Shown: positions 3,370 through 24,280 of the stretch, piece after piece
How positions within the stretch are numbered: the stretch's first letter is position 1
Layout: every line of letters starts with the position of its first letter
DNA from: a virus
Length of the DNA stretch: 30,837 bases
Strand: one strand, 5' to 3'
Virus record (IMG/VR): IMGVR_UViG_3300043434_000479
Span: 1 to 30,837 of that record
Translations under genes and position numbers: made by a program
Notes under the pieces: generated by a model
What the model saw: only the letters and a program-made list of their open reading frames with translations
The model's database searches: none
Told to the model about the DNA's origin: nothing

Positions 3370-3381
3370 TTATTATACAAT
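3353..3381 (+). promoter_or_regulatory. sigma70-like promoter for queE, predicted leaderless transcript
   Basis: TTGACA at 3353-3358, a 17-base spacer, and TACAAT at 3376-3381. The -35 lies in the last codons of the radical SAM gene. Start-site spacing of 6-8 bases would put transcription at 3387-3389, on the queE ATG (3387-3389). No Shine-Dalgarno is visible in the AT-only stretch before the ATG. Confidence 0.65.
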
Positions 3382-3386
3382 ATATT

Positions 3387-8300: not shown

Positions 8301-8320
8301 TTATTCGGATATTGTAGTAA

Positions 8321-8349
8321 TTGACACCGCCTCCGGGCGGTGTTATACT
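8321..8349 (+). promoter_or_regulatory. sigma70-like promoter for the VWA gene
   Basis: TTGACA at 8321-8326, a 17-base spacer, and TATACT at 8344-8349. The spacer is almost wholly a GC-rich perfect inverted repeat. Expected transcription start is near 8356, about 24 bases before the ATG at 8380. The AGGACA at 8370-8375 is a plausible ribosome-binding site. Confidence 0.7.
8324..8343 (+). repeat. perfect inverted repeat inside the promoter spacer
   Basis: ACACCGCC (8324-8331) and GGCGGTGT (8336-8343) are exact reverse complements separated by TCCG. In RNA this is an 8-bp GC-rich stem closed by a C(UCCG)G tetraloop of the stable UNCG class. It starts within the -35 hexamer and ends at the base before the -10. 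It lies 23 bases after the moxR stop. It could be an operator, a moxR transcript 3' end (no clear U-run follows), or both. Confidence 0.7.
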
Positions 8350-8379
8350 ATATACTATTGTAAAACGTAGGACATTTAT

Positions 8380-9558
8380 ATGGCACACTTAGATCCAGTT
8401 ATTGACAAGATTATTGTAGCACGAGTTGGATTGTTACTAAGACATCCGTTCTTTGGTAATATGGCTACACGTCTTAAAATCGAAGACGGCAGTGACTGGT
8501 GTAAAACTGCTGCAACCGACGGTCGATCAATTTATTTTAATCGTGATTTCTTTGAAACACTTACTAACAAAAATGTTGAATTTGTTATTGCTCACGAAAT
8601 TCTGCATAACGTATTTGACCACATGGGACGATGTGAAGGTAGAGATCGAAAGATTTTTAATGCTGCCGCAGACTACTGTGTTAACGGGCAACTAGTAAGA
8701 GATCGTATCGGAGATCCTATTAAGGATTTTCAAATGTTTCACGATCAAAAATACTACGGGTGGAGTGCAGAACAAGTCTATGATGACATCTATGAAAAGA
8801 TGGACTCTGATATGCTTGATGCACTCGGTAAGCTACTTGACGAACATATCGACTGGGAAAAAAGTTCCGGAAACGGTCAGCCTACATATACTAAAGAAGA
8901 ACTGAAAGCAATTAGAGACGAGATTAGAGAAGCTACTGTATCGGCTGCACAAGCCGCAGGTGCAGGTAATACTCCTGCAGGCGTAGCAAGACTAATTAAA
9001 GAACTAACTGAACCGAAGATGAACTGGCGAGATATTATCCGTCAGCAAATTCAAAGCATTATTCGAAACGACTATACATTCATGCGTCCTAACCGTAAGG
9101 GCTGGCATATGAACGCTGTTCTTCCAGGTACTAGTTTTGCCGAAACTATCGATGTATGTGTTGCACTCGATATGTCCGGATCAATCGGTGCTGTAGAAGC
9201 AAGAGACTTTTTAACCGAAGTCAAAGGCATTATGGACGAGTTTAAAGACTTTAAACTTAAACTGTGGTGTTTTGATACTGCTGTATATAACGAAGCAGAT
9301 TTTGATGGTTACAATTCAGATGAATTTGTAAACTATCAAATCGCAGGCGGCGGTGGTACTGCATTCGAAGCTAACTGGGAATACATGAAGGAAAACGAGA
9401 TTCAACCGAAGAAGTTCATTATGTTCACAGATGGTTATCCGTGTGGTTCTTGGGGTGATGAAGGATATTGCGATACTGTGTTCATTATTCACGGTAATAA
9501 CACTATTGTTCCGCCGTTCGGTGAATATGCATACTATACGTTTTCAGCGGGAACTTAA
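8380..9558 (+). CDS. metallopeptidase-like domain plus VWA (MIDAS) protein
   Basis: A 392-residue two-domain protein. The N-terminal part has AHEILHNVFDH, i.e. an HExxH motif with His72, Glu73 and His76, as in the putative metallopeptidase domain of the DUF2201 family. The C-terminal part is a VWA domain with a MIDAS site: Asp264-x-Ser266-x-Ser268 in LDMSGS, Thr327 in GGGGT and Asp351 in FTDGYP. The middle (about 140-215) is a helical linker. In MoxR/VWA pairs the MIDAS protein binds the ATPase hexamer through a bound metal and recruits the substrate, which fits the upstream moxR gene. Whether the HExxH site is catalytically active is unknown. It has its own promoter with an unusual hairpin spacer. 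Confidence 0.88.
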   Translation: MAHLDPVIDKIIVARVGLLLRHPFFGNMATRLKIEDGSDWCKTAATDGRSIYFNRDFFETLTNKNVEFVIAHEILHNVFDHMGRCEGRDRKIFNAAADYCVNGQLVRDRIGDPIKDFQMFHDQKYYGWSAEQVYDDIYEKMDSDMLDALGKLLDEHIDWEKSSGNGQPTYTKEELKAIRDEIREATVSAAQAAGAGNTPAGVARLIKELTEPKMNWRDIIRQQIQSIIRNDYTFMRPNRKGWHMNAVLPGTSFAETIDVCVALDMSGSIGAVEARDFLTEVKGIMDEFKDFKLKLWCFDTAVYNEADFDGYNSDEFVNYQIAGGGGTAFEANWEYMKENEIQPKKFIMFTDGYPCGSWGDEGYCDTVFIIHGNNTIVPPFGEYAYYTFSAGT

Positions 9559-10717: not shown

Positions 10718-11034
10718 TTAATAAGGGACGGATCCTTCCTAAAGAAGCAATCGATTACTGGCCAGAAGTATTCGAAGAGGTAACAATTAATGTGTTGCCT
10801 CTTCAATATCTTCATTCTGTCTTAATTAATTTTCAAGATGGAAAAAGTTGGGAAATTAAAGTAACTTCAAAAATAAAAAAAGATGGATGGGAAACATTTG
10901 AACAAACACTTAGTGAGCTTGTTCAAAACTACGAAACATCAATCATTGATATCGACTTTCAATTAGATATCGAAAAAGTTAAAAAAGACATCAAGAAAAA
11001 AACTCAAAAATTCTTCAATAAAAAAAATATATGA
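10714..11034 (+). CDS. conserved phage protein, unknown
   Basis: Encodes 106 residues from a GTG at 10714, embedded in the stop of the preceding gene (GTGA). It opens with INKGRILPKEAIDYWPEVFEEV, followed by a strand-rich middle (LHSVLINFQDGKSWEIKV) and a Lys-rich helical C terminus (KKDIKKKTQKFF). The GTG lacks a clear separate ribosome-binding site beyond GCAGAGGAG about 30 bases upstream, so it probably depends on coupling. The ATGA junction at its end links it to DHFR. The function is unknown; position suggests association with the nucleotide-metabolism genes that follow. Confidence 0.7.
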   Translation: MINKGRILPKEAIDYWPEVFEEVTINVLPLQYLHSVLINFQDGKSWEIKVTSKIKKDGWETFEQTLSELVQNYETSIIDIDFQLDIEKVKKDIKKKTQKFFNKKNI

Positions 11035-11528
11035 TTATAGGTATGTTTGCTGTTGATGATAACAGTGGTGTCGGAAATAACGGCGGAATGCCTTGGCCTC
11101 CAAATAAAGAAGACTTTAAATGGTTTAGAGAAACTACTTTAAATCACATTGTAGTAATGGGTAAAACTACATGGAATAGTCCCGATATGCCCAAGCCTCT
11201 TCCAAAAAGAACAAATGTTGTAATTGCAAACAATTGCACCGAAATTAAACATGCAGATGTTGTATTCTCCGGAAATGTACCAGATGCACTAAAATTATTA
11301 ACTCTTCAATATTTAGATAAAGATGTTTTTGTCATCGGTGGAGTTAATATTCTATTGCAGGCAAAACCTGTTTTAGAAAAATTATACATTACTCGTATTC
11401 CTGGAATATATGATGCAGATACTCAAATCAATTTAGAAAACTTCTTAGAAGGCTTTATACTAACTAATACTAGAGATTTAGGATCTTGCAAGGTAGAGGA
11501 ATATGAAGCAATACAACGAAGCACTTAA
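11031..11528 (+). CDS. folA: dihydrofolate reductase
   Basis: A 165-residue DHFR, which reduces dihydrofolate to tetrahydrofolate with NADPH and regenerates the folate consumed by ThyA. The N terminus IIGMFAVDDNSGVGNNGGMPW (residues 2-22) is the typical opening strand and Met20-loop region. The catalytic acid is most likely Asp28 (motif ED-F-K-W-F, one residue longer than E. coli). VVMGKTTWNS at 41-50 and FVIGGVNI around 100-107 are the NADPH-binding segments, with Gly103-Gly104. The start is coupled by ATGA to the previous gene. The 3' end overlaps thyA by 26 bases, so the two are translated as a pair. T4 encodes a similar frd-td pair. Confidence 0.93.
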   Translation: MIIGMFAVDDNSGVGNNGGMPWPPNKEDFKWFRETTLNHIVVMGKTTWNSPDMPKPLPKRTNVVIANNCTEIKHADVVFSGNVPDALKLLTLQYLDKDVFVIGGVNILLQAKPVLEKLYITRIPGIYDADTQINLENFLEGFILTNTRDLGSCKVEEYEAIQRST

Positions 11529-12375
11529 ACAAATTTTAGAAAACGGCAAAGAAAAAACTGATCGTACAGGAACAGGTACGCTTAGTATATTCGGCATGCA
11601 GCTACGTTTTGACCTTAGACTGGGTTTTCCTGCTGTAACAACAAAAAAGCTAGCATGGCGCGCTGTAGTAAGCGAGCTGCTGTGGTTTTTAGAAGGGTCT
11701 GGCAGCGAACTTAGGCTAAAAGAGATTTTGTACGGCACTAGTGCTACTGATAGAAGTACTATTTGGTCAGCAAATGCAAATTCCGAATACTGGAAACCGA
11801 TGGCAAAAACCGACGGAGATTTAGGACGTATATACGGTGTACAATGGAGACACTGGAGAACTCCGCATCGTAAATGGCTTAATTCAAGCACTTTCGAGCC
11901 AGTTGTGATCGATCAATTACAAGAATTAATTAATGGTATTAAGACTGCACCCGATAGTCGCAGGCATATTCTTACTGCATGGAATCCTGGAGAATTAGAT
12001 TTAATGGCTCTTCCTCCTTGTCATGTTATGTGTCAATTTGATGTTACAGATGGATATTTAAGCTGTCAACTATATCAGCGTAGTTGCGACATGTTTTTAG
12101 GAGTCCCGTTTAACATTGCAAGTTATAGCTTACTTACACACATTATTGCTAGAGAATGCGATTTAAAAGTAGGAGATTTTATTTGGACAGGTGGCGATTG
12201 TCATATTTACAAAGACCATCTTGATGCTGTAAAAGAACAATTAACTAGAGAACCGAAAGATCTTCCTACTTTATATTTTACAGTAGGTAAGAAATTTGAC
12301 GAATATAATATAGATGATTTTAAACTAGAAAATTACGATCCGCATCCTGCTATCGTAGCACCGATGTCAGTTTAA
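11503..12375 (+). CDS. thyA: thymidylate synthase (ThyA-type)
   Basis: A 290-residue ThyA-type enzyme, converting dUMP to dTMP with methylene-tetrahydrofolate. Catalytic Cys173 is in LPPCH, phosphate-binding Arg153-Arg154 are in DSRRH, and Arg21 is in TDRTGTGT. Asn204 in VPFNIASY is the residue that selects uracil over cytosine. Phage dCMP hydroxymethylases carry Asp there, so dUMP is the expected substrate. It is slightly longer than E. coli ThyA (264) and like T4 td (286). No intron or intein is present, unlike T4 td. Its last 26 bases overlap the end of the opposite-strand glycosyltransferase gene, and a terminator-like hairpin follows inside that gene. Confidence 0.95.
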   Translation: MKQYNEALKQILENGKEKTDRTGTGTLSIFGMQLRFDLRLGFPAVTTKKLAWRAVVSELLWFLEGSGSELRLKEILYGTSATDRSTIWSANANSEYWKPMAKTDGDLGRIYGVQWRHWRTPHRKWLNSSTFEPVVIDQLQELINGIKTAPDSRRHILTAWNPGELDLMALPPCHVMCQFDVTDGYLSCQLYQRSCDMFLGVPFNIASYSLLTHIIARECDLKVGDFIWTGGDCHIYKDHLDAVKEQLTREPKDLPTLYFTVGKKFDEYNIDDFKLENYDPHPAIVAPMSV

Positions 12376-14347
12376 ACTTTTCCTCTAACCATTTAAAATC
12401 GTTAATTTTTGAAAGTGCCGGTAAATTTCCGGCATTTTCTTCTCCATATAATCTACCTGCTCTTGCACCTTGGATAGCATTAATTGCAAATGGTCCTTCG
12501 GCAACCGTACACCATACATTCAATCTTTCTTCAGTTTCTGCATTAACTTGTCCTTGAATAGTTTTTGATGCGAGTTTTGCACATTCTCGAAATGCCGATT
12601 TCCATGTATTAAATGGATCTGTATTAAATGCTGTTATATTTGAAACTTCATTTACAACCTTAAATCTTTTGCTTATTGCTGTTGTCATATCAGGGGTATT
12701 AACATCCATATTCAGTGTTAGATCTCTGGGCAACAGTTTTACTCCTCCGTATCCATAAATTAGATTATTCATAGGATTTTTACTATTCCATGTATGTACA
12801 ATATCTCTCTCGTATCTAGTAACTAAATAATCAAACTTAAAATTATCCTCTATGATAGCATCACCGTCTACTACCCAAAACATATGAGTAGTTGCTTTTT
12901 TTGCTGCTTCTATATGTGCTTTATGTATTCCTTTAACTTTGTGTACACGTTTAGCAAATGGATATTTTGATTTAAGAATTTTATAATTTTCATCAGCATT
13001 TGGCTCGTTATAGCTGATAAAGACTATATCATATAATTTTGTTTTCGATGCAATGATATTATGTTCGATTTTATCCATTAAAAATCTAAAATTTATTTCC
13101 CTTTCTGTAACGGGTTTTTCGGATGTCATTAACATTATTGATCCGGTATACACTTCTTTATTGCCAAATATATTCTTAAAAACATGATTCATGCTTCTTT
13201 CATATTCGTACTTTTGAGACTTCTGTGTATAGTATAGATCAAAATTAAATGTATCTAATGGTTCAACTTCTGAAGGAATAACCCAGAACAGTTCAGTAGT
13301 TGTTTTTCGAAATGCATTAAGATAGTCATTATAATTTTCAACTATAAATTGATCATACAGTTTTGGTTTACTTGCTACAATATTCCACTCTTTTCTATTA
13401 ACTGGAAATCTAAATTCTATTTCTCGCTTGCTTAATTGAACATTTTTACTTAATAAAAAGATTCCATCATATGTTTCGTTTCCATCTTCTTGATGTATAA
13501 ATGCATGATTATATTCTCTATCATAATCATGATTATGATTCTTTTTTGAAAAATATAAATCAAATTTAAAATTATCAACTGGTGTAATATTCTTCGATGT
13601 CATCCAAAACATCTCAGTTGTGGTATTTTCTAACGCATCTAGATATTCTTGATATGTATCAATTGTGAAGATGTCATATAGCTTTGGTTTACTTGCTACA
13701 ATGTTCCATTCTTTCCTATTAACCGGAAACCTAAATTCTATTTCTTTTTTACTTAACTGGACATTTTTACTTAATAGAAAAATTCCGTCATACGTCTCTT
13801 TCTCATCTTCTTCATGTATAAATGCATGATTTGAATTTCGATCCTGATAAAATTCATTTGTTCGTTTTGTAAAAAATATATCAAATTTAAAATCATCAAC
13901 CGGACTGATGTTTTTTGACGTCATCCAAAACATCTCAGTTGTAGTATTTTCTAATGCATCTAGATATTCTTGATATGTATCGATTTCAAAAATATCATAA
14001 ATTTTAAGTGGTGTACTAGATTGTATATCAACTTCTTTTTTGTTTAGAAAAAATCGATATTGAAATTCTCTCTCAGATATCGATGCTGTTTTAGGTACTA
14101 AACACACACCGTTAAAAGTAGTGTCATTTTTAAACACATGTATGTATTCTTGATCCCAAGTCGGAACTTCGTAATCAAAGTTAAAACTATCCTTTAAAAC
14201 GATGTCATCCCATACTACCCAAAACATCGATGTAAAAGCCTGAGATTTTGCTTCTGTTAATGTGCTAGCGTGTTTTGCAAAAGGATAACGTGTACGAAGT
14301 TTTTTTAACCCTGCAGGAATATCCGATATGTAAAATATATCGTACAT
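12350..14347 (-). CDS. GT2-like glycosyltransferase with four degenerate N-terminal repeats
   Basis: A 665-residue protein. Residues 439-665 form one GT2-like domain: IVFISYNEPNADENY, a KRVHKVKGIHKAHIEAA helix, the metal-binding VVDGDA (Asp494-x-Asp496), then YGYGGVKLLP. This matches the neighbouring 301-residue protein. Residues 2-116, 117-223, 224-330 and 331-438 are four repeats of about 107 residues that copy only the domain's front part. Their FW(V/M) strand aligns with MFWVVDGDA, but the two catalytic Asp are lost (VVWDD, MTSKN, MTSKN, VIPSE). Repeats 2 and 3 are nearly identical. It probably glycosylates a phage or host component; the acceptor is unknown. The ATG shares one base with the upstream stop, and the 3' end overlaps thyA on the other strand. 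Confidence 0.78.
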   Translation of the reverse strand: MYDIFYISDIPAGLKKLRTRYPFAKHASTLTEAKSQAFTSMFWVVWDDIVLKDSFNFDYEVPTWDQEYIHVFKNDTTFNGVCLVPKTASISEREFQYRFFLNKKEVDIQSSTPLKIYDIFEIDTYQEYLDALENTTTEMFWMTSKNISPVDDFKFDIFFTKRTNEFYQDRNSNHAFIHEEDEKETYDGIFLLSKNVQLSKKEIEFRFPVNRKEWNIVASKPKLYDIFTIDTYQEYLDALENTTTEMFWMTSKNITPVDNFKFDLYFSKKNHNHDYDREYNHAFIHQEDGNETYDGIFLLSKNVQLSKREIEFRFPVNRKEWNIVASKPKLYDQFIVENYNDYLNAFRKTTTELFWVIPSEVEPLDTFNFDLYYTQKSQKYEYERSMNHVFKNIFGNKEVYTGSIMLMTSEKPVTEREINFRFLMDKIEHNIIASKTKLYDIVFISYNEPNADENYKILKSKYPFAKRVHKVKGIHKAHIEAAKKATTHMFWVVDGDAIIEDNFKFDYLVTRYERDIVHTWNSKNPMNNLIYGYGGVKLLPRDLTLNMDVNTPDMTTAISKRFKVVNEVSNITAFNTDPFNTWKSAFRECAKLASKTIQGQVNAETEERLNVWCTVAEGPFAINAIQGARAGRLYGEENAGNLPALSKINDFKWLEEKFKLTSVLR
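12416..12438 (+). terminator. intrinsic terminator for the thyA operon
   Basis: TGCCGG (12416-12421) pairs with CCGGCA (12429-12434) over a 7-base loop, followed at once by TTTT and then CTTCT. It lies 40 bases after the thyA stop and within the 3' end of the opposite-strand gene, where it encodes Asn-Ala-Gly-Asn-Leu-Pro-Ala. On the - strand the following run is poorer, so it is mainly a + strand terminator. Confidence 0.7.
13358..13999 (-). repeat. tandem 321-bp direct repeats in a glycosyltransferase gene
   Basis: Repeat 2 (13679-13999) and repeat 3 (13358-13678) are adjacent, each exactly 107 codons long. They share runs such as TYQEYLDALENTTTEMFWMT and SKNVQLSKxEIEFRFPVNRK at the same offsets. 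The flanking repeats 1 (14000-14344) and 4 (13034-13357) are more diverged. The near identity of 2 and 3 points to a recent in-frame duplication of one unit. Confidence 0.85.
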
Positions 14348-15252
14348 TAATCTCTTCTCAAAATTCGTCTATTGTTATTATATACTGTTTTGAAGAATGT
14401 AGAACTGTCGGGCTCTAGATCGGCAATTTCTAATCCACATTCTCTTTTTAAAGTGTGTCCTAATCCTAACACTTCGTAAGGCAACATATCTAAATCTATA
14501 GTATACTTGCTATATTTTGATTCCCATTGTTCTGTTAACCAATCAAAATCTCTAACTAGACTATAATCCCAATCAGTACAATTTGTAAGATATGCACCTT
14601 CTCGTGCACCATATATAGACCATATTCCGTGTTGAACATCCATGCCGACACTACACCAAATTAACAATCGCTGATAATTTTGCCACCAAACTTTTTTAAT
14701 ATCTAATGCTTTTGCACCTTGATCAAGGCTCATCTTTACGCCTTCTCGAAATCCTGCTCTCCATGCTTGAAACGGGCTTGCATTTGTATAGCTTTCAGAA
14801 TAGCACTCGTTGAACTGAAAATACCTCTCATCAAAACAAAATTCAACTTTTCCTTTAATATCATCAGGATCCGAATTTTCATGTGTTCTCATTTCGTTAA
14901 CAAACTTTCGAGTCCACATTTTTAAACCTCCGTTACCGTACATTAATCCGTTAACATGAACTTTTCCGCACCAACTAAAAACATGATCTTTTGTTAATCC
15001 TAACTCATCTAAATTTAGTTCTAATCTCAAAAACTTTGGATCTACTATATTATCGGCATCAACTGTAACAAAATATTCTGTTTCACTTTCTGCTGCACAT
15101 GCCTTATGAGCTGCATCACTACCTTTTACTCCGTGTACTCTCTTTGCCCACGGAATTTTACTTAATAAATCTGCATAGTTTTTTTCAGCGTTCGGTTCGT
15201 CATAGCTGAGGAAAATTATATCTTGATCTATAATCTTAATTATGTTACTCAT
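14347..15252 (-). CDS. GT2-like glycosyltransferase
   Basis: A 301-residue protein paralogous to the C-terminal domain of its downstream neighbour. DIIFLSYDEPNAEKNY (residues 11-26) and AKRVHGVKGSDAAHKA (36-51) are shared, followed by a DxD-type metal/nucleotide-sugar site VDADN (Asp65, Asp67). LMYGNGGLKMWTRKF, FQAWRAGFREGVKMS and IYGAREGAYL follow in the same order as in the other protein. Asp65-x-Asp67 is intact, so this copy should be catalytic. The sugar and acceptor are unknown; candidates are modified DNA, tail fibres or host surface sugars. The ATG is at 15250-15252, overlapping the upstream gene by 8 bases. It is the fifth gene of the 17.85-12.35 kb operon. Confidence 0.82.
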   Translation of the reverse strand: MSNIIKIIDQDIIFLSYDEPNAEKNYADLLSKIPWAKRVHGVKGSDAAHKACAAESETEYFVTVDADNIVDPKFLRLELNLDELGLTKDHVFSWCGKVHVNGLMYGNGGLKMWTRKFVNEMRTHENSDPDDIKGKVEFCFDERYFQFNECYSESYTNASPFQAWRAGFREGVKMSLDQGAKALDIKKVWWQNYQRLLIWCSVGMDVQHGIWSIYGAREGAYLTNCTDWDYSLVRDFDWLTEQWESKYSKYTIDLDMLPYEVLGLGHTLKRECGLEIADLEPDSSTFFKTVYNNNRRILRRD

Positions 15253-15835
15253 ATACTGTTTTTAGCCCGTATGATTTAAATACTATCTTTGAAGATATCG
15301 ATAACTTTGTAATATCTAATTCTTTTTTACTTGTAAACTGAAATTCAATGTTTTCTAAATCTAATAAATCTTTTATATCAATATACATAGTTCGAATTAA
15401 AAAATCAAAATCATTTTCTAATGTAATAAAGATTACTATTTTTGAAAGTAAAAGCTCTGTTTTGTAATGTTCTTTTACAGAGCTATCTAAAGAAACTACC
15501 CATTTCTTTTTTGGTAAATTCCATTCTACTACTAACTCAGAAAACTTTTTTGTTTCTTCGATCCATTCGAATACATTATTTCGAAACACATAATCTTGAT
15601 CTAATACCGGCATTATACATTTAATTGTAATACCATTCTGCTTCTTTCTGCCAACAATATATTCAGAAAATTTCCATTCTCCTGATATTAACTTTGTTGC
15701 TTCATATTGCGGTATTTCTATTCCGTGTTCATAGTCGATACTTTTTTCGTTAGACACTGATAAAATTTCACCGGACTTTTGATCGTAAAATGCATAAAAT
15801 TTTACTGGAATGTCAATGAACTTTTTCTTTGCCAT
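15245..15835 (-). CDS. unknown protein in the glycosyltransferase operon
   Basis: A 196-residue protein, strongly beta-rich at the start (IPVKFYAFYDQKSGEILSVSNE) and Lys/Glu-rich later, with an ISSKIVFKSYGLKTVYE C terminus. I see no DxD, Rossmann motif or membrane segment and recognise no family. Its start overlaps the upstream gt8-like gene by 23 bases and its stop overlaps the GT2-like gene by 8 bases, so it belongs to the same operon. A helper, acceptor or structural role is possible; nothing in the sequence decides it. Confidence 0.65.
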   Translation of the reverse strand: MAKKKFIDIPVKFYAFYDQKSGEILSVSNEKSIDYEHGIEIPQYEATKLISGEWKFSEYIVGRKKQNGITIKCIMPVLDQDYVFRNNVFEWIEETKKFSELVVEWNLPKKKWVVSLDSSVKEHYKTELLLSKIVIFITLENDFDFLIRTMYIDIKDLLDLENIEFQFTSKKELDITKLSISSKIVFKSYGLKTVYE

Positions 15836-16685
15836 TTACTAATCCTTCTAACTTTTTAATCATTTGCGATGTTAAGAAACTATTTTCTATGTAATGTGCA
15901 ATCTTCGACTGTTTAATATTACCGATTACTAATTCTCCTCTAGAATTAAATGCACACGGTACAGCATCTTGCCAACTTTCAAATAATATCGGCCATCCTT
16001 GTATCCCTGGTTTTAGATGTATAAATTCTAAGGGAGAACAGTCGTCAATAACTGTTTCGTTAACTCCAAATATTTCAATTGCTATTGCTGTTGCTAAATC
16101 CATACTTAAACAATCTTGATATTCTTTTAATGCAAATCGATCATAACACCATTGCCAGTTATTACATACAAATTCCAAAATTTTATAAAAGTCGTGTGTT
16201 TCTTGGCATTTTTTAAAATAATGCAATGCATAATACGGACTTGGCAAATTGTTTGCAGTAAATGTTTTTCGGTAAACATTAGTTGTATCATTAACTACTT
16301 CTAATTTATAATTTTTAATTCTCGAACAAAATTTTAGATTATAATTACTACAATAATCCCACCATTGCGAGATATCTTCTAATATTAACATATCCGAATC
16401 TAATACAATTGTTTCGTCGTACGGAGTTACATGATATAATTTCCATCTATGTTCCCCTCTATATCTTGTAACTTCTTCTGTGTTAACCCAAGGAATTTCA
16501 ATTATATGATCAAATACTTTTTGGTGTTTTTTAATTACTTTATCGTTAGTAACTAAAGACACATTTGTTACGTTTTTTTGACTATTTTTAATAGATAATG
16601 CTAGAGCATACGCTTGCTGAACATAATTTGTATCTTTCGTATTTTGTGCAAATATTAAAAATCCTTTAGACACCGGTACCTCCAT
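15813..16685 (-). CDS. GT8-like glycosyltransferase
   Basis: A 290-residue protein of the glycogenin/GT8-like type. The opening FLIFAQNTKDTNYVQQAYALALSIK (about residues 9-33) is the usual nucleotide-binding start. Next come SLVTND, a DHIIEIPW strand, and the metal site VLDSDM with Asp96-x-Asp98. The later WQWCYDRFALKEYQD and ECxxxD-like segments fit the family's acceptor half, and FIHLKPG resembles the conserved His-x-x-G metal element. Members transfer a sugar from a UDP or other nucleotide donor with retention. The start at 16685 overlaps the upstream paralogue by 20 bases. The sugar and target are unknown; with its paralogue and two GT2-like genes it forms a phage glycosylation cluster. 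Confidence 0.75.
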   Translation of the reverse strand: MEVPVSKGFLIFAQNTKDTNYVQQAYALALSIKNSQKNVTNVSLVTNDKVIKKHQKVFDHIIEIPWVNTEEVTRYRGEHRWKLYHVTPYDETIVLDSDMLILEDISQWWDYCSNYNLKFCSRIKNYKLEVVNDTTNVYRKTFTANNLPSPYYALHYFKKCQETHDFYKILEFVCNNWQWCYDRFALKEYQDCLSMDLATAIAIEIFGVNETVIDDCSPLEFIHLKPGIQGWPILFESWQDAVPCAFNSRGELVIGNIKQSKIAHYIENSFLTSQMIKKLEGLVNGKEKVH

Positions 16686-17505
16686 CGATAAATCTTAAAA
16701 GGCTCATTTTATTCATTACGTGAACATCTATTCCTGATGTTTTTACTGCAAGATATTCACCATAACTATTTGGTTTTTGAATTAAAAATTGCATATCAGT
16801 GTCATTCATATCGATCAAGTAATCTTGCTCTAAAATATATGTCATTTTACCGGGTAATTCTGTTGCAAATTCACCGTTTGTTTTACCATTCATTATGTGA
16901 ATTGCAATACTAAACGAATAATCATTTCGATATAAGATCGATTCAATGTTATATAATACTTTGAAGTAGCCCCAGTTTTCTTTTATGTAATTTATCAAAG
17001 TAAAGAAACATTCCATTACCGGATGTTTTTCAAATACAAATGCAGTTGCCCAATAGAATGGGACAGAATATGGATTTACCCGAGTAAAATACTCGTCTTT
17101 TCTCCATTGAGACAAGTCAAAGCTATTGTGATAAATTTGAAACAATGCATCTCGGTCGAATGCTTGTTTTAATTTTGAAGAATTGATAATAAAATCACTG
17201 TCAATTACTAGAGTTTTTTGATAAGGTGTAAGTTCGTATACTTGATTTCGTGAGGTATTTTTCCATTCTACTTTTTTAGAACTTAATGTACCGTCATAAA
17301 ACAATTTTTGTGTACAATTTTCGTATGGAATCTTGATGATCCTATCGAATGTATCTTTAGGATATTCTAAAAAAGAATCAGGATTATCTGTAATAATGCT
17401 AACAGGAAGATCTAAATACTTCTTAATTCGTACTGCACAAAAGTATGCTAGTTTACTGTAGTCAATAATTCCATTATTTTGAGCAAAGATTACTGCTCCA
17501 TTCAT
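16666..17505 (-). CDS. GT8-like glycosyltransferase, paralogue of the next gene
   Basis: A 279-residue protein with the same layout as its downstream paralogue: AVIFAQNNGIIDYSKLAYFCAVRIKK at the N terminus, SIITDNPDS, FDRIIKIPYENC, and a metal site VIDSDF with Asp102-x-Asp104. VFEKHPVMECFFTLINYIKENW matches the FKKCQETHDFYKILEFVCNNW region of the partner. The C-terminal IDVHVMNK segment is where the second metal His would be. The ATG overlaps the previous stop by four bases (ATGA). The tandem pair looks like an old duplication, and both metal sites are intact. The acceptor is unknown. Confidence 0.72.
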   Translation of the reverse strand: MNGAVIFAQNNGIIDYSKLAYFCAVRIKKYLDLPVSIITDNPDSFLEYPKDTFDRIIKIPYENCTQKLFYDGTLSSKKVEWKNTSRNQVYELTPYQKTLVIDSDFIINSSKLKQAFDRDALFQIYHNSFDLSQWRKDEYFTRVNPYSVPFYWATAFVFEKHPVMECFFTLINYIKENWGYFKVLYNIESILYRNDYSFSIAIHIMNGKTNGEFATELPGKMTYILEQDYLIDMNDTDMQFLIQKPNSYGEYLAVKTSGIDVHVMNKMSLLRFIDGGTGV

Positions 17506-17852
17506 AACGAGACAATATCCTCTACTCTTCTTTTGTTTTTTATGTCTGCAAATCGAGTAGCATACTCGTTTACTGCATTAAAATAGGTATTTACAACATC
17601 ATCGTAAAATTTATTAACATCATTTACAATTACAGGAAAATTATTTGCATCAATAAAGGCTGCATCCTTAACAATTCCTCGATGAATCATTAAATTAGTA
17701 AAAGATATTAATTCAGGAGTTATTTTAAAAGTACCACCGTTAATGTAGTATACAGTTTTTTGTTCAAATTCTTCTAAAATAACACGTCTTTGATTTGATA
17801 AAGATGCAATATAATTTGCTACATCAAAGGCTTTTTCAACTTTTTCATCCAT
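17502..17852 (-). CDS. small helical phage protein, first gene of the glycosyltransferase operon
   Basis: A 116-residue protein, largely helical. An N-terminal helix (EKVEKAFDVANYIASLSNQRR) leads into EEFEQKTVYYINGGTFKITPELISF, then NNFPVIVNDVNKFYDDVVNTYFNAVNEYATRFADI. AGAGGTT lies just upstream of the ATG. It directly follows a sigma70-like promoter whose -10 sits in an inverted repeat. I recognise it as the kind of hypothetical protein found beside structural genes in marine T4-like phages. No catalytic motif is visible; it may be a structural or assembly factor rather than part of the glycosylation pathway. Confidence 0.7.
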   Translation of the reverse strand: MDEKVEKAFDVANYIASLSNQRRVILEEFEQKTVYYINGGTFKITPELISFTNLMIHRGIVKDAAFIDANNFPVIVNDVNKFYDDVVNTYFNAVNEYATRFADIKNKRRVEDIVSL

Positions 17853-17911: not shown

Positions 17912-18820
17912 CTATAAAGTGGATGTCGGTGATGTTGGCTGTAAAATAGATACATTACTACCGGTTGCACGATATGTTTGAACTGTGCTAGTTAATGTAC
18001 CGTCGACTGATTCGTCTGTTCCCCAAGGTGGATTTGGTTGTCCTGAATCGTCGGCAAAATATATTGTAAAAGTAATTTGATTTCTATTGGTTGTATCATT
18101 TACTCGCGCATTAATGTAATACTTGTTTGGATAATAAGATTCAGCCGATGTTAATGCTCTAGTAAAAATTGTTTGATCAGAAGTAGTTAAATCATAAAAA
18201 CCAATACCTGACCCTGTACCCTGTCCTGATGTTGATGTAGTATCATAATCAAACGTAATTGTACCCATGTTTGTTAATAGAGTTGTCCAAGATGTATTCT
18301 TAGAACCGCTATTTCCTCCGGTTCGACTTGCAGTAAACTCTATCTTTCCTCCAGAGTTAAAGAAGTATCGTGAATTATATGTTCCTGGATAAATTGTTGA
18401 TTCGGTAAAGTTAACAACAACAGTATGCGACACTACAGTATTCCACGACGCCACCCGTTGAGCCGAATTAATAGTTGCCCTAGTTGCTTGTCCAGCAGGT
18501 AATGCAAATCTTCCAGGTCCAATTGCATCCGATACTAACTTGTATTCGTCATAAATTTCTGATGCTAATGTTACGTTTGCAGCAGGCGTAGTTAAATTGT
18601 TTGCATAACTAGTATCAGTTTGATGTTGTATACATTTTAACAAATCATTTCGTAAATTTTCCCATTGAGATATCGAAATTCTAGTACCTGTTGATACTTG
18701 AGAACTAGTTACTGATTGCCCGTACCCATAAGTTCCGGATCCTTGTCCTAACACAAGTGCTGCCGACGATTGCAATGCATTAAAATCCGACGCTAGTATT
18801 AGAGTATTTTTACCTGCCAT
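17912..18820 (-). CDS. virion structural protein (tail/fibre-associated type)
   Basis: A 302-residue protein with a Gly/Ser/Thr-rich, strand-forming composition typical of phage tail and fibre proteins. N-terminal DFNALQSSAALVLGQGSG then YGYGQSVTSSQV and ISISQWENLRNDLLKCIQHQ leads to a beta-rich body (NSRYFFNSGGKIEFTAS, FDYDTTSTSGQGTGSGIGFYDL) and a VDGTLTSTVQTYRATG end. This matches a common structural protein of marine T4-like phages; its place in the virion is uncertain. It is the last gene of the structural block in transcription order and ends just beyond the glycosyltransferase-operon promoter. A weak late-promoter-like box precedes it. Confidence 0.72.
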   Translation of the reverse strand: MAGKNTLILASDFNALQSSAALVLGQGSGTYGYGQSVTSSQVSTGTRISISQWENLRNDLLKCIQHQTDTSYANNLTTPAANVTLASEIYDEYKLVSDAIGPGRFALPAGQATRATINSAQRVASWNTVVSHTVVVNFTESTIYPGTYNSRYFFNSGGKIEFTASRTGGNSGSKNTSWTTLLTNMGTITFDYDTTSTSGQGTGSGIGFYDLTTSDQTIFTRALTSAESYYPNKYYINARVNDTTNRNQITFTIYFADDSGQPNPPWGTDESVDGTLTSTVQTYRATGSNVSILQPTSPTSTL

Positions 18821-18844: not shown

Positions 18845-20371
18845 TTAAAGTATTACACACTCGACTAATTTGACGTCGAACGAGCTATTTGACTCTAATG
18901 CAATAGCAAATACTCTACTATCTACTGTATTAACTATACTAGCTGTTCCGTCTGCTGCTGCTACTAATGAATCTCCTTTATTAACAGGTCCACTAACTTT
19001 AACAGGAACTCTTCCTTTTAATGCAACATACACGCCGCCTTCTAATTCTGAATTCATCATATATGCAGGATTTTCAGATATAACACCAATTGCACGTTTT
19101 CCGTATGAGCTTGCTGTAATTTCTTTTTCTCCGCCAACAACCATTACTGTACCAACTTCGTAATCAGCATCAGGTAAGTATTTTTCTGCTAAGTCTGCGT
19201 AATTTGCCGATGTTGCTGTACCTACAAAGAACGATCCTTTAATCGCACCTGCCGGAATTACTGTCGAATTAATTGTTTGTTGTGCAGAAGTTCTTACAAC
19301 TACTGTTCCCGAAGATTGATATTCACTTGCAGTTGCCGGTGCCGGTGATAATTCGGTATTAACTACCATCTTATTAGCTAAAGATGCTGTTCCTTCAAAG
19401 TCATATGCATATACTTTCTTAAACTTATAAGAAACTGTACCTAAATCAGTGACGTTATCTTCACCCGGACGAACATTAAGATCAACTAACTGCAACGGAG
19501 TTCTAGTAGTAGAGTTTACAGTTGTCTGGAACTTCATTGTTCCGCCTGCTTGGTTCCTAAAAATTGGCGTTTCAGCACTTTCGTTCTTAATAAGTAACTT
19601 TGGAGGATTAGTTGATCCTACTGTGAATCCGTCATCTCCAAATGATACTACACCAGTAAATGTTGCATCACCTGTTCTAACGAAGTCAGATTCAGTATAT
19701 CCGCCCAATCTCTCAGCATTTGTAGCAGTTCCCCAGAATCGATGTGCCGATGTTGTTTCACCGATATGACTTGGATCATCATTATTAGTATAAATTAATG
19801 TTAAACCTTCATGTATCTTTGAAAAACCTGTAATATCATCTGTACCTGGCTTTAATGTAAATACCGGATCAGAACTAATAATGAATACAGTAACTCCGTT
19901 TGCAACACCTTCAACAATTGCATGTGTATTACCTAAAGTATCTGTTACCTTTCTTGATCTCATCTGTGTAGTAGCAGAACCAGGGATTCCTTGCGGCCCA
20001 ATTAAAACATATTTGGATCCGTCCCATACATAAAATTGATTATTAGTTGTATCAAACCAAAAGTCTCCAACAGATAACCCGGAAGGTTCTACAGTTCCGG
20101 TTTCGGATCCTCCGATAGTTCTAAATTTTAAACCATCGTAAAATTTTACTTTACCGTTAGATGAATCATACCAAATTTGTCCTGCAATTGGTCTCGGAGG
20201 AGGAGATGAATTAGCAAAGTTTTCAAGCATGAACACAAAATTTTCATTTTGTACTTCACCATATCCGGCATAGTTTTTACCGATTAACTTAATGTCTAAT
20301 CTGTTGTCGATAGTACCGTCTGTAATAACAGTAATCTGATCTCCGTTATATTTGTTTATAGTATATGGCAT
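18845..20371 (-). CDS. tail fibre-like structural protein (paralogue 1)
   Basis: A 508-residue protein. Residues 1 to about 75 share a domain with the next two genes: INKYNGDQITVITDGTIDN, LIGKNYAGYGEVQNENFV and PIAGQIWYD. A second shared unit, GDFWFDTTNNQFYVWDGSKYVLIGPQG, follows near residue 100. The middle has TDLGTVSYKFKKVYAYDFEGTA, and the C terminus (residues about 370-508) starts with YADLAEKYLPDADYEVGTVMVVGGEKEIT and RAIGVISENPAYMMNS, a module seen at the ends of phage fibre proteins. Probably a trimeric tail fibre or baseplate-attached protein; receptor binding is inferred, not shown. A late-promoter-like box precedes it. Confidence 0.8.
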   Translation of the reverse strand: MPYTINKYNGDQITVITDGTIDNRLDIKLIGKNYAGYGEVQNENFVFMLENFANSSPPPRPIAGQIWYDSSNGKVKFYDGLKFRTIGGSETGTVEPSGLSVGDFWFDTTNNQFYVWDGSKYVLIGPQGIPGSATTQMRSRKVTDTLGNTHAIVEGVANGVTVFIISSDPVFTLKPGTDDITGFSKIHEGLTLIYTNNDDPSHIGETTSAHRFWGTATNAERLGGYTESDFVRTGDATFTGVVSFGDDGFTVGSTNPPKLLIKNESAETPIFRNQAGGTMKFQTTVNSTTRTPLQLVDLNVRPGEDNVTDLGTVSYKFKKVYAYDFEGTASLANKMVVNTELSPAPATASEYQSSGTVVVRTSAQQTINSTVIPAGAIKGSFFVGTATSANYADLAEKYLPDADYEVGTVMVVGGEKEITASSYGKRAIGVISENPAYMMNSELEGGVYVALKGRVPVKVSGPVNKGDSLVAAADGTASIVNTVDSRVFAIALESNSSFDVKLVECVIL

Positions 20372-20408: not shown

Positions 20409-22124
20409 TTAACTTGGATAAGGAAGGTCGAGTACATGAGACCATATTCCGCTAACCATTTGATATTCTCTGACGATATACCCTTGTGGTGCTATAGCAG
20501 AATCGACGCAGTAAATTCGACATATTGTATCATCATCAACATAATCTGACGGATACACAATGTCTAAAATTTTTGATCCTATTAATGTAGTGCTTAGTCC
20601 TGTTGTATCTGCATAAAATGCTACTTGTTTTGTTCTTACTTCTGAGGTTAGTGTTTGATAATTAACTGCATCAGTACTGCTTACAGGGTCCGATACGCTA
20701 GTAATTCTTTTACTACTAACATCAACTGTTCCGCTACCTTTCGGTGCTAATGTTATTGTTCCAGTTGCGCTTGAAGGGTTAGTATATGTAACTATTGAGA
20801 TATTATTCATATCATCATGAGTTATAACTAATTTTGCTGCAACTAACGATCCTAGTTCTCCTATACTATGCAACCCAGGCGCAGATACTACCGATATACC
20901 TAATGCAGTTTCACTTAAAACTTGAGATCCGTCAATATGAAACGCCTTACCAGATAATAAATCGATGTTTTCAGACGAAGTCCATGCTGTAGTCGATTGC
21001 TGCCATAACCATGTTTTATTCCCATCTAAACCGGCCTGTAGAGAAATACCCCCTCCATTAGCAGTACTATCAGTTGGGGTGTCTACTTTGCCTATTTCGA
21101 ATACTAAATCTTCAATGTAGATGTTAGTTGTATTAATCGTAGTAGATGATCCTTCAACTGTTAAATTTCCACGTATTCTTACTCCCCCGTTAACATCTAA
21201 TGTATCAGTCGGTGTTTCAGTGTATAAACCAATATGTTCGTTATATGCATCAATAAATATCGACGGCTTTGTGCCTAACGAATTCAACATATTGATCGAA
21301 AAATTTTGATCACTAATAGTTGAATTTATTCGCACACTTCCTGTTGTAATGTTAACTTCTAAATTTTGAGTTGGTCCTAAAACTAAAGGTACACTATTTT
21401 GAATAGTAATAGATCCGCTAGCAAATGTATCTTCAAATGCTGATAAGAAGCTTTCAGCAGTTCTTAATGAGTCGTCACCTGCAATCAGAGCCGATGCCTT
21501 TGTAACCGGCACGTCATAACTTATGCCACTATAAGTGCCTACATTAAATCCTACATTAATTTGTTTTGGTGTTAAAGATGTAGAATATCCTGCAATAGGT
21601 GATGCAGGAATAAATTGATCTTTACTATAAATTCCTATTAATACTTCCGATACATATAATAAAACAATAGTGTGTAATAGTTGATTAGTGTCGAATACAT
21701 CCTCGGCTACAAACCCCGAGACTCCCTGAGTGGATGAATATATAGGTCCTGCTAAAATTCTACTCTCGCCGTCATAAAAATGAACTTGTTTTTTAGTACT
21801 ATCAATCCATATGTCGCCTTGTGTAAACGAGGTAGGCAGTGTTCCAGAAACAATAGTGCCTCCTGATACCTTAAAAGTCGAACCGTCATATACTTTTAAT
21901 CTTCCTTCCCCAATATCGTACCAAATTTGTCCAATAATTGGATTAGCTGGGCTAATTGAATCTGCAAAATTTTCTAAAATATGAACTAAATTTTCGTTAA
22001 TAAACTCTCCGTAAGAGCTAGAGTTTTTACCTATTAATGTAATATCAGTTGCTGTTTGATTAATTGTACCATCAACAACTTCAACTAGTACACTCCCGTC
22101 GGTTTTGTTTATAATATAGCTCAT
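20409..22124 (-). CDS. tail fibre-like structural protein (paralogue 2)
   Basis: A 571-residue protein with the same opening as its neighbours: YIINKTDGSVLVEVVDGTINQ, LIGKNSSSYGEFINENLVHILENFAD, NPIIGQIWYD, then GDIWIDSTKKQVHFYDG. The central part has VEGSSTTINTTNIYIEDLVFEIGK (about residue 330), a repeat type common in phage fibres, and GTITLAPKGSGTVDV followed by RITSVSDPVSSTDAVNYQ. The last 70 residues are unlike the other two paralogues. It lacks the collar domain. Coupled by ATGA to the upstream paralogue and probably co-transcribed. The exact position in the tail is unknown. Confidence 0.8.
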   Translation of the reverse strand: MSYIINKTDGSVLVEVVDGTINQTATDITLIGKNSSSYGEFINENLVHILENFADSISPANPIIGQIWYDIGEGRLKVYDGSTFKVSGGTIVSGTLPTSFTQGDIWIDSTKKQVHFYDGESRILAGPIYSSTQGVSGFVAEDVFDTNQLLHTIVLLYVSEVLIGIYSKDQFIPASPIAGYSTSLTPKQINVGFNVGTYSGISYDVPVTKASALIAGDDSLRTAESFLSAFEDTFASGSITIQNSVPLVLGPTQNLEVNITTGSVRINSTISDQNFSINMLNSLGTKPSIFIDAYNEHIGLYTETPTDTLDVNGGVRIRGNLTVEGSSTTINTTNIYIEDLVFEIGKVDTPTDSTANGGGISLQAGLDGNKTWLWQQSTTAWTSSENIDLLSGKAFHIDGSQVLSETALGISVVSAPGLHSIGELGSLVAAKLVITHDDMNNISIVTYTNPSSATGTITLAPKGSGTVDVSSKRITSVSDPVSSTDAVNYQTLTSEVRTKQVAFYADTTGLSTTLIGSKILDIVYPSDYVDDDTICRIYCVDSAIAPQGYIVREYQMVSGIWSHVLDLPYPS

Positions 22125-24280
22125 TCTGCAACCCCAGTATAAATTATGTAGTTAATAGTTAAATAAGGATTCATAATGTTTAGAGGCTGTGATAGACTTG
22201 TTGATATCACCCCTCCACTATTTGGTAATCCGTATCCGTCAATAGTGCCTGTTGGCAATCCTCTTCCTGGTAAGGCATTGATGTCTGTTGTTCCTGGGAC
22301 ACCGGCTGCATAATATTGAGCCGACGAACTGCTCATATTGTGTTTGTGTTCCGGTAAGTTATTAAGTTGTATTGTAGTTTGCTCAGATCCAGAACCACTT
22401 CCTAACGAGTCAGCTACTGCCGAAGTAACACGGTTTGAAGATCCGCCGCCTGCATCTATTAATACTTCTGGAGAGTTTTTATCAGGAATGGTTTTTTCAT
22501 TGTCCATATTGTCACGGCCTAATGCAAATCTACCTCTCAAATCAGGTAATGCAAATGCTGCTTGTCCCGACATGTTACTAGATGGTTTATATGCATAACC
22601 GATAACTTCGAATAATTTAATATATCTCGATATACTAACTTCACTACCGTCACATAGTAAGTATCCAGACGGAGGTGTCGGACCGGCAAACGGAAATATT
22701 GCACCAACCGGTACTGTCGGTATATTTGCAATAAAAGATGCTTTTGTTGTCTTTTTAAGACCCGGACTAACGTTCCCACCTCTGTATACAATTAACGTAT
22801 CGCTATCATATGTGTCAAACACTTCGGTCTTAGCATTAATAATATCAGCACCGATAATAGTGTTAAAAGTAACTGTGCCGTCGGTCGTTTCGCCGTCGAA
22901 TTGTATATCAGGGGAAGAAGTGACATCGCCTCGAATTCTAAAAGTTGTTGCATTTTCTAATTTTTTTGCAATGTCGGCTGTACCGGATAGAGGTCCTGAA
23001 AAAGTTCCTTGAACATTACCGATTATGGTACTTGCCCAAATATTTCTAAATCTAAGACTTGATGAACCTATATCGTAACTATTCGTTGCACCGGGCACAA
23101 TAACACTAGTTCCAATTATTGGACTACCACTATGTAAATCTTGTAATTTATTAAGAGTAATCGGACCATATGTAACAACACTATCTCCTAAGAACGATTT
23201 ACCATTAATTGATAAACTACCTTCAGTGGCAATACTGTTATTTTCGTCCCCTAGGTATGTTCCATTCGCAGAACTTCCGGTATTTGTTACGTAAATATTA
23301 CCCGAAGATCTAAAATCTCCCTTAACATCAAGTGTAGCAAGAGGATTTACATTATCCGGACCAATTCCAATTTTTGTATTTGACCCAATCGATAGTGCAA
23401 TGTATTCTCCTGGGTTTAACTCAGCATCACCCGCGTGATTCACGCGAACATTGATATTTTTACCGCTACTTTTAGAATAAAATAATGTAGATGTATCAGT
23501 GCTTATACTGAAAGATAAATCAGCACCTATTGATATTCCATTTTTTGATCGAATATTAAACTGATTGTTAGTAGTACTTGTGATATCACTTCTTAAAAAG
23601 TTACTAGCATCAATTGTAGATCCATTAACATTTAATGCATCTGCCTCGCTTGAACGTCCCCAAAACTTCGACGGATTTGTTGCACTTGCTGAATCAACCT
23701 TGCTTAAATTAAGTCCTTGGTTGATAGCAGGAAATCCGATAAGTGTTGTCTTTGGAGTAAAAGCGGATTTACTTACAATTGCAATTCTTTCATTTTCTGC
23801 AAAAAGTGTTGTTACTAAATGATCAACATTGTCAGTATCAGTGATTGTTTCTGTCTCTGGCCCTGTTTTAATACCGTTACTATATTGAGGTCCTACAAGC
23901 AACCATGTCGATCCTGACGAAATATATAACTGTTTCTTTAGTGTATCAACCCATATATCACCGGTTGTATTTGTTAATGTCGGTGCTGTATTAGATTTTT
24001 TAATCGATCCCGTCGGAGCCCACTCTGTTCCATCAAAGACTCTTAATATGTTTGTTCCATTATCATACCAGAGTTGACCTTCTACTGGATTTGCCGGTGA
24101 TTCGTTATTAGCAAAATTTTCTAATAAGTGTAAAAAATTTTCAGCTATCGGCTGTCCATATCCCGGATAATTTTTACCCACGAATCTTAAACTTGTCTGT
24201 GTGTTTAGTTGTTGATCGTCAACAGTTAGTGACGGTTTCGACGGATTAGATGTTTCAGTAAATTTGACTTGATATGTCAT
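22121..24280 (-). CDS. tail fibre protein with gp12-like collar domain (paralogue 3)
   Basis: A 719-residue protein, the longest of three paralogues. Residues 1 to about 250 repeat the shared N-terminal modules (LRFVGKNYPGYGQPIAENFL, GQLWYDNGTNILRVFDGTEW, GDIWVDTLKKQLYISS). The middle holds PGATNSYDIGSSSLRFRNIWA-type and GDVTSSPDIQF repeats. Residues 523 to about 575 are a phage tail collar domain (VGAIFPFAGPTPPSGYLLCDGSEV, LPDLRGRFALG). A Gly/Ser-rich loop region with NNLPEHKHNM (His645, His647) follows, a candidate metal site as in T4 gp12. The end YLTINYIIYTGV is also collar-type. This is probably the short-tail-fibre-like protein. GGAG precedes the ATG. Confidence 0.87.
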   Translation of the reverse strand: MTYQVKFTETSNPSKPSLTVDDQQLNTQTSLRFVGKNYPGYGQPIAENFLHLLENFANNESPANPVEGQLWYDNGTNILRVFDGTEWAPTGSIKKSNTAPTLTNTTGDIWVDTLKKQLYISSGSTWLLVGPQYSNGIKTGPETETITDTDNVDHLVTTLFAENERIAIVSKSAFTPKTTLIGFPAINQGLNLSKVDSASATNPSKFWGRSSEADALNVNGSTIDASNFLRSDITSTTNNQFNIRSKNGISIGADLSFSISTDTSTLFYSKSSGKNINVRVNHAGDAELNPGEYIALSIGSNTKIGIGPDNVNPLATLDVKGDFRSSGNIYVTNTGSSANGTYLGDENNSIATEGSLSINGKSFLGDSVVTYGPITLNKLQDLHSGSPIIGTSVIVPGATNSYDIGSSSLRFRNIWASTIIGNVQGTFSGPLSGTADIAKKLENATTFRIRGDVTSSPDIQFDGETTDGTVTFNTIIGADIINAKTEVFDTYDSDTLIVYRGGNVSPGLKKTTKASFIANIPTVPVGAIFPFAGPTPPSGYLLCDGSEVSISRYIKLFEVIGYAYKPSSNMSGQAAFALPDLRGRFALGRDNMDNEKTIPDKNSPEVLIDAGGGSSNRVTSAVADSLGSGSGSEQTTIQLNNLPEHKHNMSSSSAQYYAAGVPGTTDINALPGRGLPTGTIDGYGLPNSGGVISTSLSQPLNIMNPYLTINYIIYTGVAE

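Follow-up and report, generated by a model that had tools for sequence, protein, structure and literature searches.

Why would a phage keep several seemingly dead copies of an enzyme domain in front of one that still looks active? The question is raised by a gene on the minus strand of a 30,837-nucleotide stretch of viral DNA (IMG/VR record IMGVR_UViG_3300043434_000479, positions 1 to 30,837, the whole of which is hereafter called the window), where a 665-codon open reading frame (ORF) running from 14347 to 12350 encodes the 665-residue protein P0001. We found that this protein consists of four degenerate units resembling a GT-A glycosyltransferase (GT) domain, followed by one GT-A domain that appears intact, and that the number of units differs widely among related phages. 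The interpretation that we tentatively prefer, at a confidence only just short of even, is that P0001 is a phage GT-A glycosyltransferase carrying a non-catalytic N-terminal arm that binds the acceptor or a partner enzyme. The gene is divided as follows.

12350..14347, minus strand: gene of the 665-residue protein, with four degenerate GT-A units and one intact GT-A domain (AlphaFold2 model from a 49-row alignment; predicted local distance difference test, pLDDT, 92.4; predicted template modelling score, pTM, 0.70)
14003..14347, minus strand: first unit, residues 1-115, retaining helix 1 and strand 2, with WDD where DGD is expected
13682..14002, minus strand: unit 1, residues 116-222, in which SKN replaces DGD
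13361..13681, minus strand: unit 2, residues 223-329, with the SKN motif and 81% nucleotide identity to unit 1
13037..13360, minus strand: unit 3, residues 330-437, with the motif PSE
12353..13036, minus strand: intact GT-A glycosyltransferase domain, residues 438-665 (228 residues)
12860..12868, minus strand: DxD motif D494-G-D496, invariant in alignments A1 (25 rows) and A5 (49 rows)

The FW anchors of the protein lie at residues 42, 140, 247, 354 and 490, with spacings of 98, 107, 107 and 136 residues, and are followed in order by VVWDD, MTSKN, MTSKN, VIPSE and VVDGD. A first-pass annotation of the window had placed the anchors, the motifs and D494/D496 correctly; the gene itself is on the minus strand and spans 12350-14347 instead of 12353-14347. 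The unit size of about 107 residues agrees with a 321-bp tandem repeat that the program TRF detected in the gene (score 896), while BLAST of the protein against itself returned the trivial full-length match and nothing more. The same annotation had described units 1 and 2 as nearly identical and their duplication as recent or ongoing. Neither statement held: the two units share 77% identity over an ungapped 300 nt, and over 107 codons they are 81% identical in both nucleotides and amino acids, with 0.11 nonsynonymous (dN) and 1.15 synonymous (dS) substitutions per site. Two near-identical contigs discussed below also have four units.

On the basis of its motif and its model, the C-terminal domain (residues 438-665) is apparently a catalytic GT-A domain. 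D57 and D59 of the domain alignment, which form the DxD motif, and 41 other positions are invariant across the 25 GT domains of A1. In most of the structure-alignment rows listed, the GT-A fold corresponds to model residues 438-574; 289 PDB chains align to the full model with Z >= 8, and the best PDB row for the GT domain is B4GALNT1 (Z 11.5, root-mean-square deviation 2.7 over 138 residues, spanning 361-574). With regard to membership of the GT-A/GT2-like glycosyltransferases, the fold is thus present in the model and the DxD motif in the sequence, while the Pfam cut-off for PF00535 Glycos_transf_2 (23.3 bits) was reached neither by P0001, which gave no match, nor in the window record (0/1). 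Sub-threshold GT2 similarity to Pfam was detected in five of the 25 GT domains (best E 0.015). A named sequence family for P0001 was sought in Pfam, PHROG and PDB sequences, and no match was convincing: nothing exceeded the Pfam cut-off (best E 0.031), the sole PHROG match covered 13 residues (E 6.5e-4) with no stretch passing alone, and the one PDB sequence match was dolichol phosphate mannose synthase (E 0.63). The alignment of GT domains gave no PDB sequence match at E 1, and its Pfam and PHROG matches were weak.

That each unit is a mini GT-A domain homologous to the GT domain is well supported by sequence comparison and modelling. Used alone as a query, the GT domain retrieved the four units of its own protein (domain E 8e-10, 1e-3, 1e-3 and 2e-3). 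An iterated unit profile that started from units 1-3 of P0001 recovered all four units with E 8e-32 to 3e-41, partly by construction, and counted 84 units in the 21 proteins searched. In hhalign comparisons, the units matched the GT domain with a probability of 97.2% (E 2.8e-11) and the first units with 99.3% (E 1.2e-20), while no relation was found between the units and PAR, the GT paralogue encoded next to this gene (probability 0.5%). The AlphaFold model of units 1-2, built from a 91-row alignment, reached pLDDT 95.8 and pTM 0.85, and most of the 50 Foldseek matches listed for this pair were GT-A enzymes and related nucleotidyltransferases.

The units had been described as copies of the front part of the GT domain. 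Their likeness to the GT fold was borne out by the models, but they are not just its front half: each reaches through the GT-A core as far as the strand formed by residues 562-572, with part of the interior deleted. Units 1-3 have lost helix 1 and strand 2, both of which the first unit retains, and the C-terminal helices of the GT domain are missing from all four. Among 147 units, including one without a recognisable FW motif, none has Asp at the first DxD position and 55 have it at the second, which upholds the earlier view that modules lacking the motif were duplicated ahead of one intact GT. All 14 first units in alignment A4 carry the triplet W-D-D, which is also the commonest first-unit motif in a wider set (25/39); its conservation suggests that the first unit is kept for something other than standard DxD catalysis. 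Across 91 unit pairs, residues G72, L75 and E86 do not vary. A separate observation concerns the 16-unit protein of locus L012 (2470-2890), which has an extra N-terminal stretch of about 140 residues with a W-IVHEDLD-like motif and may contain another, very degraded unit.

The number of units was then compared among relatives collected in four IMG/VR scans. The scan with the window protein gave 61 loci; the scan with the GT-domain alignment indicated a large family, with at least 598 stretches confirmed of at least 600 pattern matches, of which 80 were kept. From 225 proteins, 218 with complete 5' ends yielded 146 distinct ones (GT score >= 250 bits, identical proteins collapsed, loci L142-L152 excluded); the choice of queries biases this sample, and pairs drawn from it are not independent. 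No unit is present in 52 of these proteins, one in 16, two in 6, three in 20, four in 23, five in 14, six in 5, seven in 1, eight in 4 and sixteen in 5. The units are always N-terminal of the GT domain, never C-terminal. The first-pass annotation had predicted a variable repeat number and had proposed comparing structures and repeat counts; both comparisons were made, and neither a lack of similarity to the GT domain nor a fixed number was found.

Agreement in unit number was assessed between distinct proteins, two at a time, whenever one or both of them carried units. The number was the same in 23 of 27 pairs whose GT domains are at least 99% identical, in 7 of 12 at 95-99%, in 4 of 14 at 90-95% and in 56 of 134 at 80-90%. 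The clearest case is that of L206 (five units) and L215 (four units), which match at 99.83% along 9.8 kb on one side and, on the other, at 96.4% along 2.2 kb, a stretch that enters the array. Their GT domains are identical, four units are 100% identical, and the alignment offset shifts by exactly 321 bp. Given that the extra unit of L206 differs by 23-26% from its closest counterparts, collapse of repeats during assembly is less likely, though still conceivable. In addition, L170 (eight units) and L195 (six) have GT domains that are 99.6% identical, and L092 (four) and L098 (three), 86-91% identical in the surroundings of the gene, have their first 55 residues in common and diverge thereafter, L098 being one unit shorter, in register. 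Judging from these comparisons, unit number is still changing in some lineages, because two phages with 99.8% identity across 9.8 kb are set apart by a single 321-bp unit.

On a quick GT tree, unit number requires at least 23 changes and presence or absence at least nine (nine again with bacterial rows included), although such trees contain many open forks. Repeated independent origins of the units were considered on this basis, and the approximately unbiased (AU) test did not reject a single clade of unit-bearing GTs (p 0.49). In L022, a relative of L013, 183 nt are deleted in frame within one unit; this deletion lies off the unit boundaries and is possibly an assembly error, and it was not used as evidence. 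At L070 (6395-8669), two overlapping ORFs take the place of a single unit-GT gene, one with three units and the other with one unit and the GT domain, which reflects a frameshift or a sequencing error.

Sequence comparison further indicates that the arrays are under purifying selection. The dN/dS ratio over the arrays is 0.08-0.17 in L013/L016, L012/L021, L094/L116, L006/L119 and L013/L100, similar to that of their GT domains where estimable; these five pairs, which span four to 16 units, are those with enough changes, the others having too few or a saturated dS. Units 1 and 2 of the window protein give a ratio of 0.10. With nucleotide sequences that differ by 11%, the 16-unit arrays of L012 and L021 are both complete and share one order of units.

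Divergence was also compared in bins of GT identity, with an aligned length of at least 200 residues and hence slightly fewer pairs than in the count of unit numbers. In the 95-98% bin (11 pairs), the mean identity is 84.6% for the best-matched unit, 96.2% for the GT domain and 97.0% for PAR. The corresponding values are 88.4, 92.8 and 97.0% in the next-lower bin (14 pairs; 13 for PAR) and 77.1, 83.9 and 86.2% in the lowest (120 pairs; 106 for PAR). The units thus appear, for the most part, to diverge faster than the GT domain. They also seem mostly to be old: only eight of 147 units have their nearest relative within the same protein, and 38 of the 42 first units listed find their best match in the first unit of another protein.

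The gene closes a cassette on the minus strand, whose other members in the window, together with a tail collar gene, are listed from the unit-GT gene outwards.

14347..15252, minus strand: PAR, full-length unit-free GT paralogue, directly upstream of the unit-GT gene
15245..15835, minus strand: 196-residue conserved protein (17/77 loci; a 205-residue family occupies the same position in 28/77)
15813..16685, minus strand: glycogenin-like (GT8-like) putative glycosyltransferase (A7 family profile against glycogenin-1, E 7.6e-7)
16666..17505, minus strand: second glycogenin-like putative glycosyltransferase (same cluster, A7)
17502..17852, minus strand: 116-residue conserved cassette protein
17912..18820, minus strand: conserved protein of about 300 residues, between the fibre-like genes and the 116-residue gene
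18845..20371, minus strand: tail-fibre-like protein heading the cassette (PHROG tail fiber, E 2.7e-11; best PHROG, without function, E 8.8e-23)
22121..24280, minus strand: tail collar-domain protein (PF07484, E 1.1e-17)

Taken singly, members of the glycogenin-like cluster match glycogenin weakly and Pfam weakly or not at all. The protein of about 300 residues matched no Pfam family at E 1 and one PHROG at E 0.25, and the PAR alignment gave nothing convincing against sequence families. Scans of promoters (30, compared with 39.7 in shuffled sequences, standard deviation 5.6) and terminators (4, compared with 2.5, standard deviation 1.8) revealed no clear excess.

The gene order recurs among 77 non-redundant loci, obtained from 139 GT proteins cut at 85% identity, many of which have short flanks. 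It starts with tail-fibre-like genes (24 loci), a gene for about 316 residues (30) and the 116-residue gene (34), continues with related GT genes, usually two (48), and the 196- or 205-residue gene (17 and 28), and ends with PAR, the unit-GT gene and often a radical-SAM cluster (59). The latter, defined by single linkage, comprises 176 genes in these 59 loci, arranged in tandem runs (for instance in L013, L006 and L018); in the one member tested, Radical_SAM was above and SPASM below the Pfam cut-off. Such runs beside tail-fibre and GT genes have the appearance of a peptide- or sugar-modifying island. In the window, the downstream neighbour of the unit-GT gene is a convergent thymidylate synthase gene, which overlaps a dihydrofolate reductase gene (11031-12375).

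With regard to distribution, no family match was found in 50,697 GenBank phage records, from which records very near the window were possibly left out. As the family is common in IMG/VR, it therefore seems to belong to phages not yet cultured. A T4-type gp23 is present in nine of 13 larger records, and the cyanophage marker psbA in none of the 13. Genome collections, in which 28 stretches matched the pattern, contributed ten loci, none with units N-terminal of the GT domain. One of them, L144, is probably a phage contig, and seven (L146-L152) are metagenome-assembled genomes (MAGs) of Bdellovibrionia/Oligoflexia with GT domains 40-46% identical. PAR and GT are adjacent in L146 and L147 and fused in L148 and in L145, which was binned as Neisseriaceae; a radical-SAM gene adjoins the GT gene in L146, L148 and L150 and is fused to it in L151 (E 2.8e-6, just below the cut-off). 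The PAR-GT and radical SAM-GT fusions of L145, L148 and L151, all on contigs binned as bacterial, link the three functions.

In the preferred interpretation, the C-terminal domain would catalyse the transfer, and the arm of degenerate copies would bind a repetitive glycan, a fibrous protein or a partner enzyme without catalysis, which could make the C-terminal active site more specific and raise its avidity. Recognition might then be retuned as units are gained, lost or exchanged. The enzyme would belong to a late cassette glycosylating phage tail fibres or the host surface, as is suggested by the tail-fibre genes that precede the gene and by the three other GT genes adjoining it. By analogy with the non-catalytic GT-like accessory domain of human LH3, it is plausible that the repeats are sugar-binding or substrate-recognition modules, as had been suggested from the sequence alone. 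The broader proposal, that T4-like aquatic phages have turned a dead enzyme copy into an array expandable to as many as 16 units, whose whole-unit turnover provides a retunable recognition arm for the active GT, is one that we put forward with clearly less than even confidence.

Several observations weigh against these interpretations. Contigs L001 and L002, both complete and near-identical to the window's phage, carry the same four-unit, 665-residue protein without variation, although L001 may be the window's own genome. As 52 of the 146 relatives lack units altogether, the arm is dispensable for the core reaction. The Foldseek matches of the unit pair were weak (best E 0.04, none at E <= 0.001). 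In a second-look PDB alignment of the pair, ThuS covered 98 residues of one unit with Z 7.4, and the next eight rows, all GT-A enzymes, covered 97-99 residues of one unit with Z 6.4-6.6, values below 8 that can be background; weak by this measure, the likeness of fold becomes convincing because the sequence profile concurs. For the window protein, units 2 and 3 give a dN/dS ratio of about 0.4 (0.40). In the bin of GT identity of at least 98% (26 pairs; 17 for PAR), the mean identities are 98.8% for the units, 99.7% for the GT domain and 98.5% for PAR, so that in the closest pairs the units are no more diverged than PAR. No member of the radical-SAM cluster lies in the window flank. Finally, the idea that the array acts as a ruler found no convincing support when unit number was compared with neighbour length in six families (13-42 loci each, p 0.05-0.63 uncorrected).

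Comparison with known systems places the arm closest to human LH3 (PLOD3). PMC6082870 describes, in line with an active GT, an AC domain that keeps the GT fold, is apparently no longer catalytic and, in its authors' suggestion, recognises collagen or binds a partner; the catalytic domain comprises residues 33-277. The unit model aligns to LH3 residues 298-536, outside that range, and, as in LH3, models and sequence indicate that a GT-A-like fold devoid of the catalytic DxD adjoins an active GT. LH3 differs in having one accessory domain, C-terminal of the GT, whereas here an N-terminal miniature array comprises one to 16 units. The Escherichia coli K4 chondroitin polymerase (K4CP), the top Foldseek match of the full model (E 1.4e-5), resembles P0001, as do similar two-domain GT-A polymerases, in carrying tandem GT-A domains in one chain. 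Both GT-A domains of K4CP are catalytic. In contrast, a DxD motif in each tandem domain was not found here, the first Asp being absent from all 147 units.

Two proteins of uncultured Caudovirales phages in BFVD, A0A6J5LK21 (804 residues) and A0A6J5L5L5 (1076 residues), matched over most of the length with E 2e-35 and 1.5e-30, the next viral match being at 1e-5, and probably have the same or a sister architecture according to their models; they are only 16-17% identical in the structural alignment and bear no annotation of function or repeats. The gene context recalls the host recognition cluster of pelagimyophages and cyanomyophages, for which PMC7029224 describes tail fibres, GTs and radical-SAM cassettes in a variable region of T4-like phages, UDP-glucose dehydrogenase among their LPS-related genes, and a proposed role of the GTs in modifying the host O-chain; virion glycosylation in phages is cited in PMC12619734. 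Tail fibres, GTs and radical-SAM genes likewise occur together in T4-like relatives of the window's phage. The accessible text of PMC7029224 describes GT8 glycosyltransferases, not degenerate GT arrays, and for the gp23 of the L001 record, the 15 best listed of 2,484 matching records are large phages, headed by Sinorhizobium phage Phosso (78.5%), rather than pelagimyophages or cyanomyophages. The Bdellovibrionia/Oligoflexia modules (L146-L152) are similar in that PAR is adjacent or fused in 3/7 (L146, L147, L148) and radical SAM is likewise adjacent or fused in L146, L148, L150 and L151 among those tested, and differ in having no units N-terminal of the GT. A literature search, with most subscription papers beyond its reach, found no description of such an expandable pseudo-GT array. 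Single pseudo-GT accessory domains are already known from LH3; as far as our searches reach, the new part is the array expandable by whole units. The natural series of 0, 1, 2 and up to 16 units, on catalytic domains 48-68% identical to that of the window, together with the pairs differing by one unit, would allow the effect of accessory-domain number on a glycosyltransferase to be measured directly.

The recurrent gene order also lends itself to another explanation, in which the array binds no acceptor and serves as a scaffold docking PAR, the two glycogenin-like GTs and the radical-SAM enzymes into an assembly line. PAR is directly upstream in 32 of 39 scorable unit-bearing loci and in 11 of 33 unit-free ones (Fisher 3.5e-5, uncorrected for kinship), and the fusions of PAR and radical SAM to GT in contigs binned as bacterial fit the idea, with the radical-SAM part of L151 just below the Pfam cut-off. 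A scaffold would nevertheless be expected to have a constant number of units, which varies; the units outpace PAR in divergence, the closest pairs excepted; and the 11 unit-free cases show that PAR also accompanies GTs without an array. We therefore regard a scaffold as unlikely. That tail-fibre and collar genes precede the gene on its own strand would equally suit a component of the virion or its surface, in which unit turnover, like that of repeat adhesins, would provide antigenic or receptor-binding variation and the GT domain would be a remnant or an anchor. It is difficult to reconcile a remnant with a GT domain in which the DxD and about 40 further residues are invariant and whose unit-free versions are plain GTs, and this explanation is improbable. 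For signals and fibre features the analysis covered Pfam and PHROG, in which P0001 had no convincing match.

Modification of DNA was considered as well, given that phage GTs acting on DNA are known (as noted in PMC12619734 and PMC7029224) and that the convergent neighbour in the window encodes thymidylate synthase; P0001 would then be a GT of the TAGT or T4 glucosyltransferase type with DNA-binding repeats. TAGT (PF20691), however, was found in none of 13 phage records (control positive, 1/14) and in none of the 25 GT domains at E 0.1, only one of 13 related records contains thymidylate synthase, and the gene is placed behind tail genes, which together make this proposal very improbable. A search for TET gave 0/13 records, with the control equally silent. 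At the other extreme, the units could be functionless, decaying duplicates generated by near-neutral repeat expansion. The complete DxD is retained in no unit and the number varies, as such decay would predict; but the low dN/dS of the five array pairs, the intact order of the two 16-unit arrays despite their divergence and the three invariant residues of the unit pairs leave this account hardly credible. A recognition arm in front of an active GT thus remains the interpretation that we prefer.

Some further features of the window lie away from the cassette. At 7212-9558, on the opposite strand and downstream of the cassette, lie genes for an AAA (MoxR-like) ATPase and, after it, a DUF2201 metallopeptidase/VWA protein; these genes also occur in some relatives (nine and ten of the 77 loci, respectively). 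A GTP cyclohydrolase I gene is followed by a B12-binding radical-SAM gene and by a radical-SAM gene with a sub-threshold Radical_SAM match (887-4238), the third of which we take to be QueE-like. Lastly, an imperfect 27-bp tandem repeat is found at 4355-4429 within a Lys/Glu-rich ORF.

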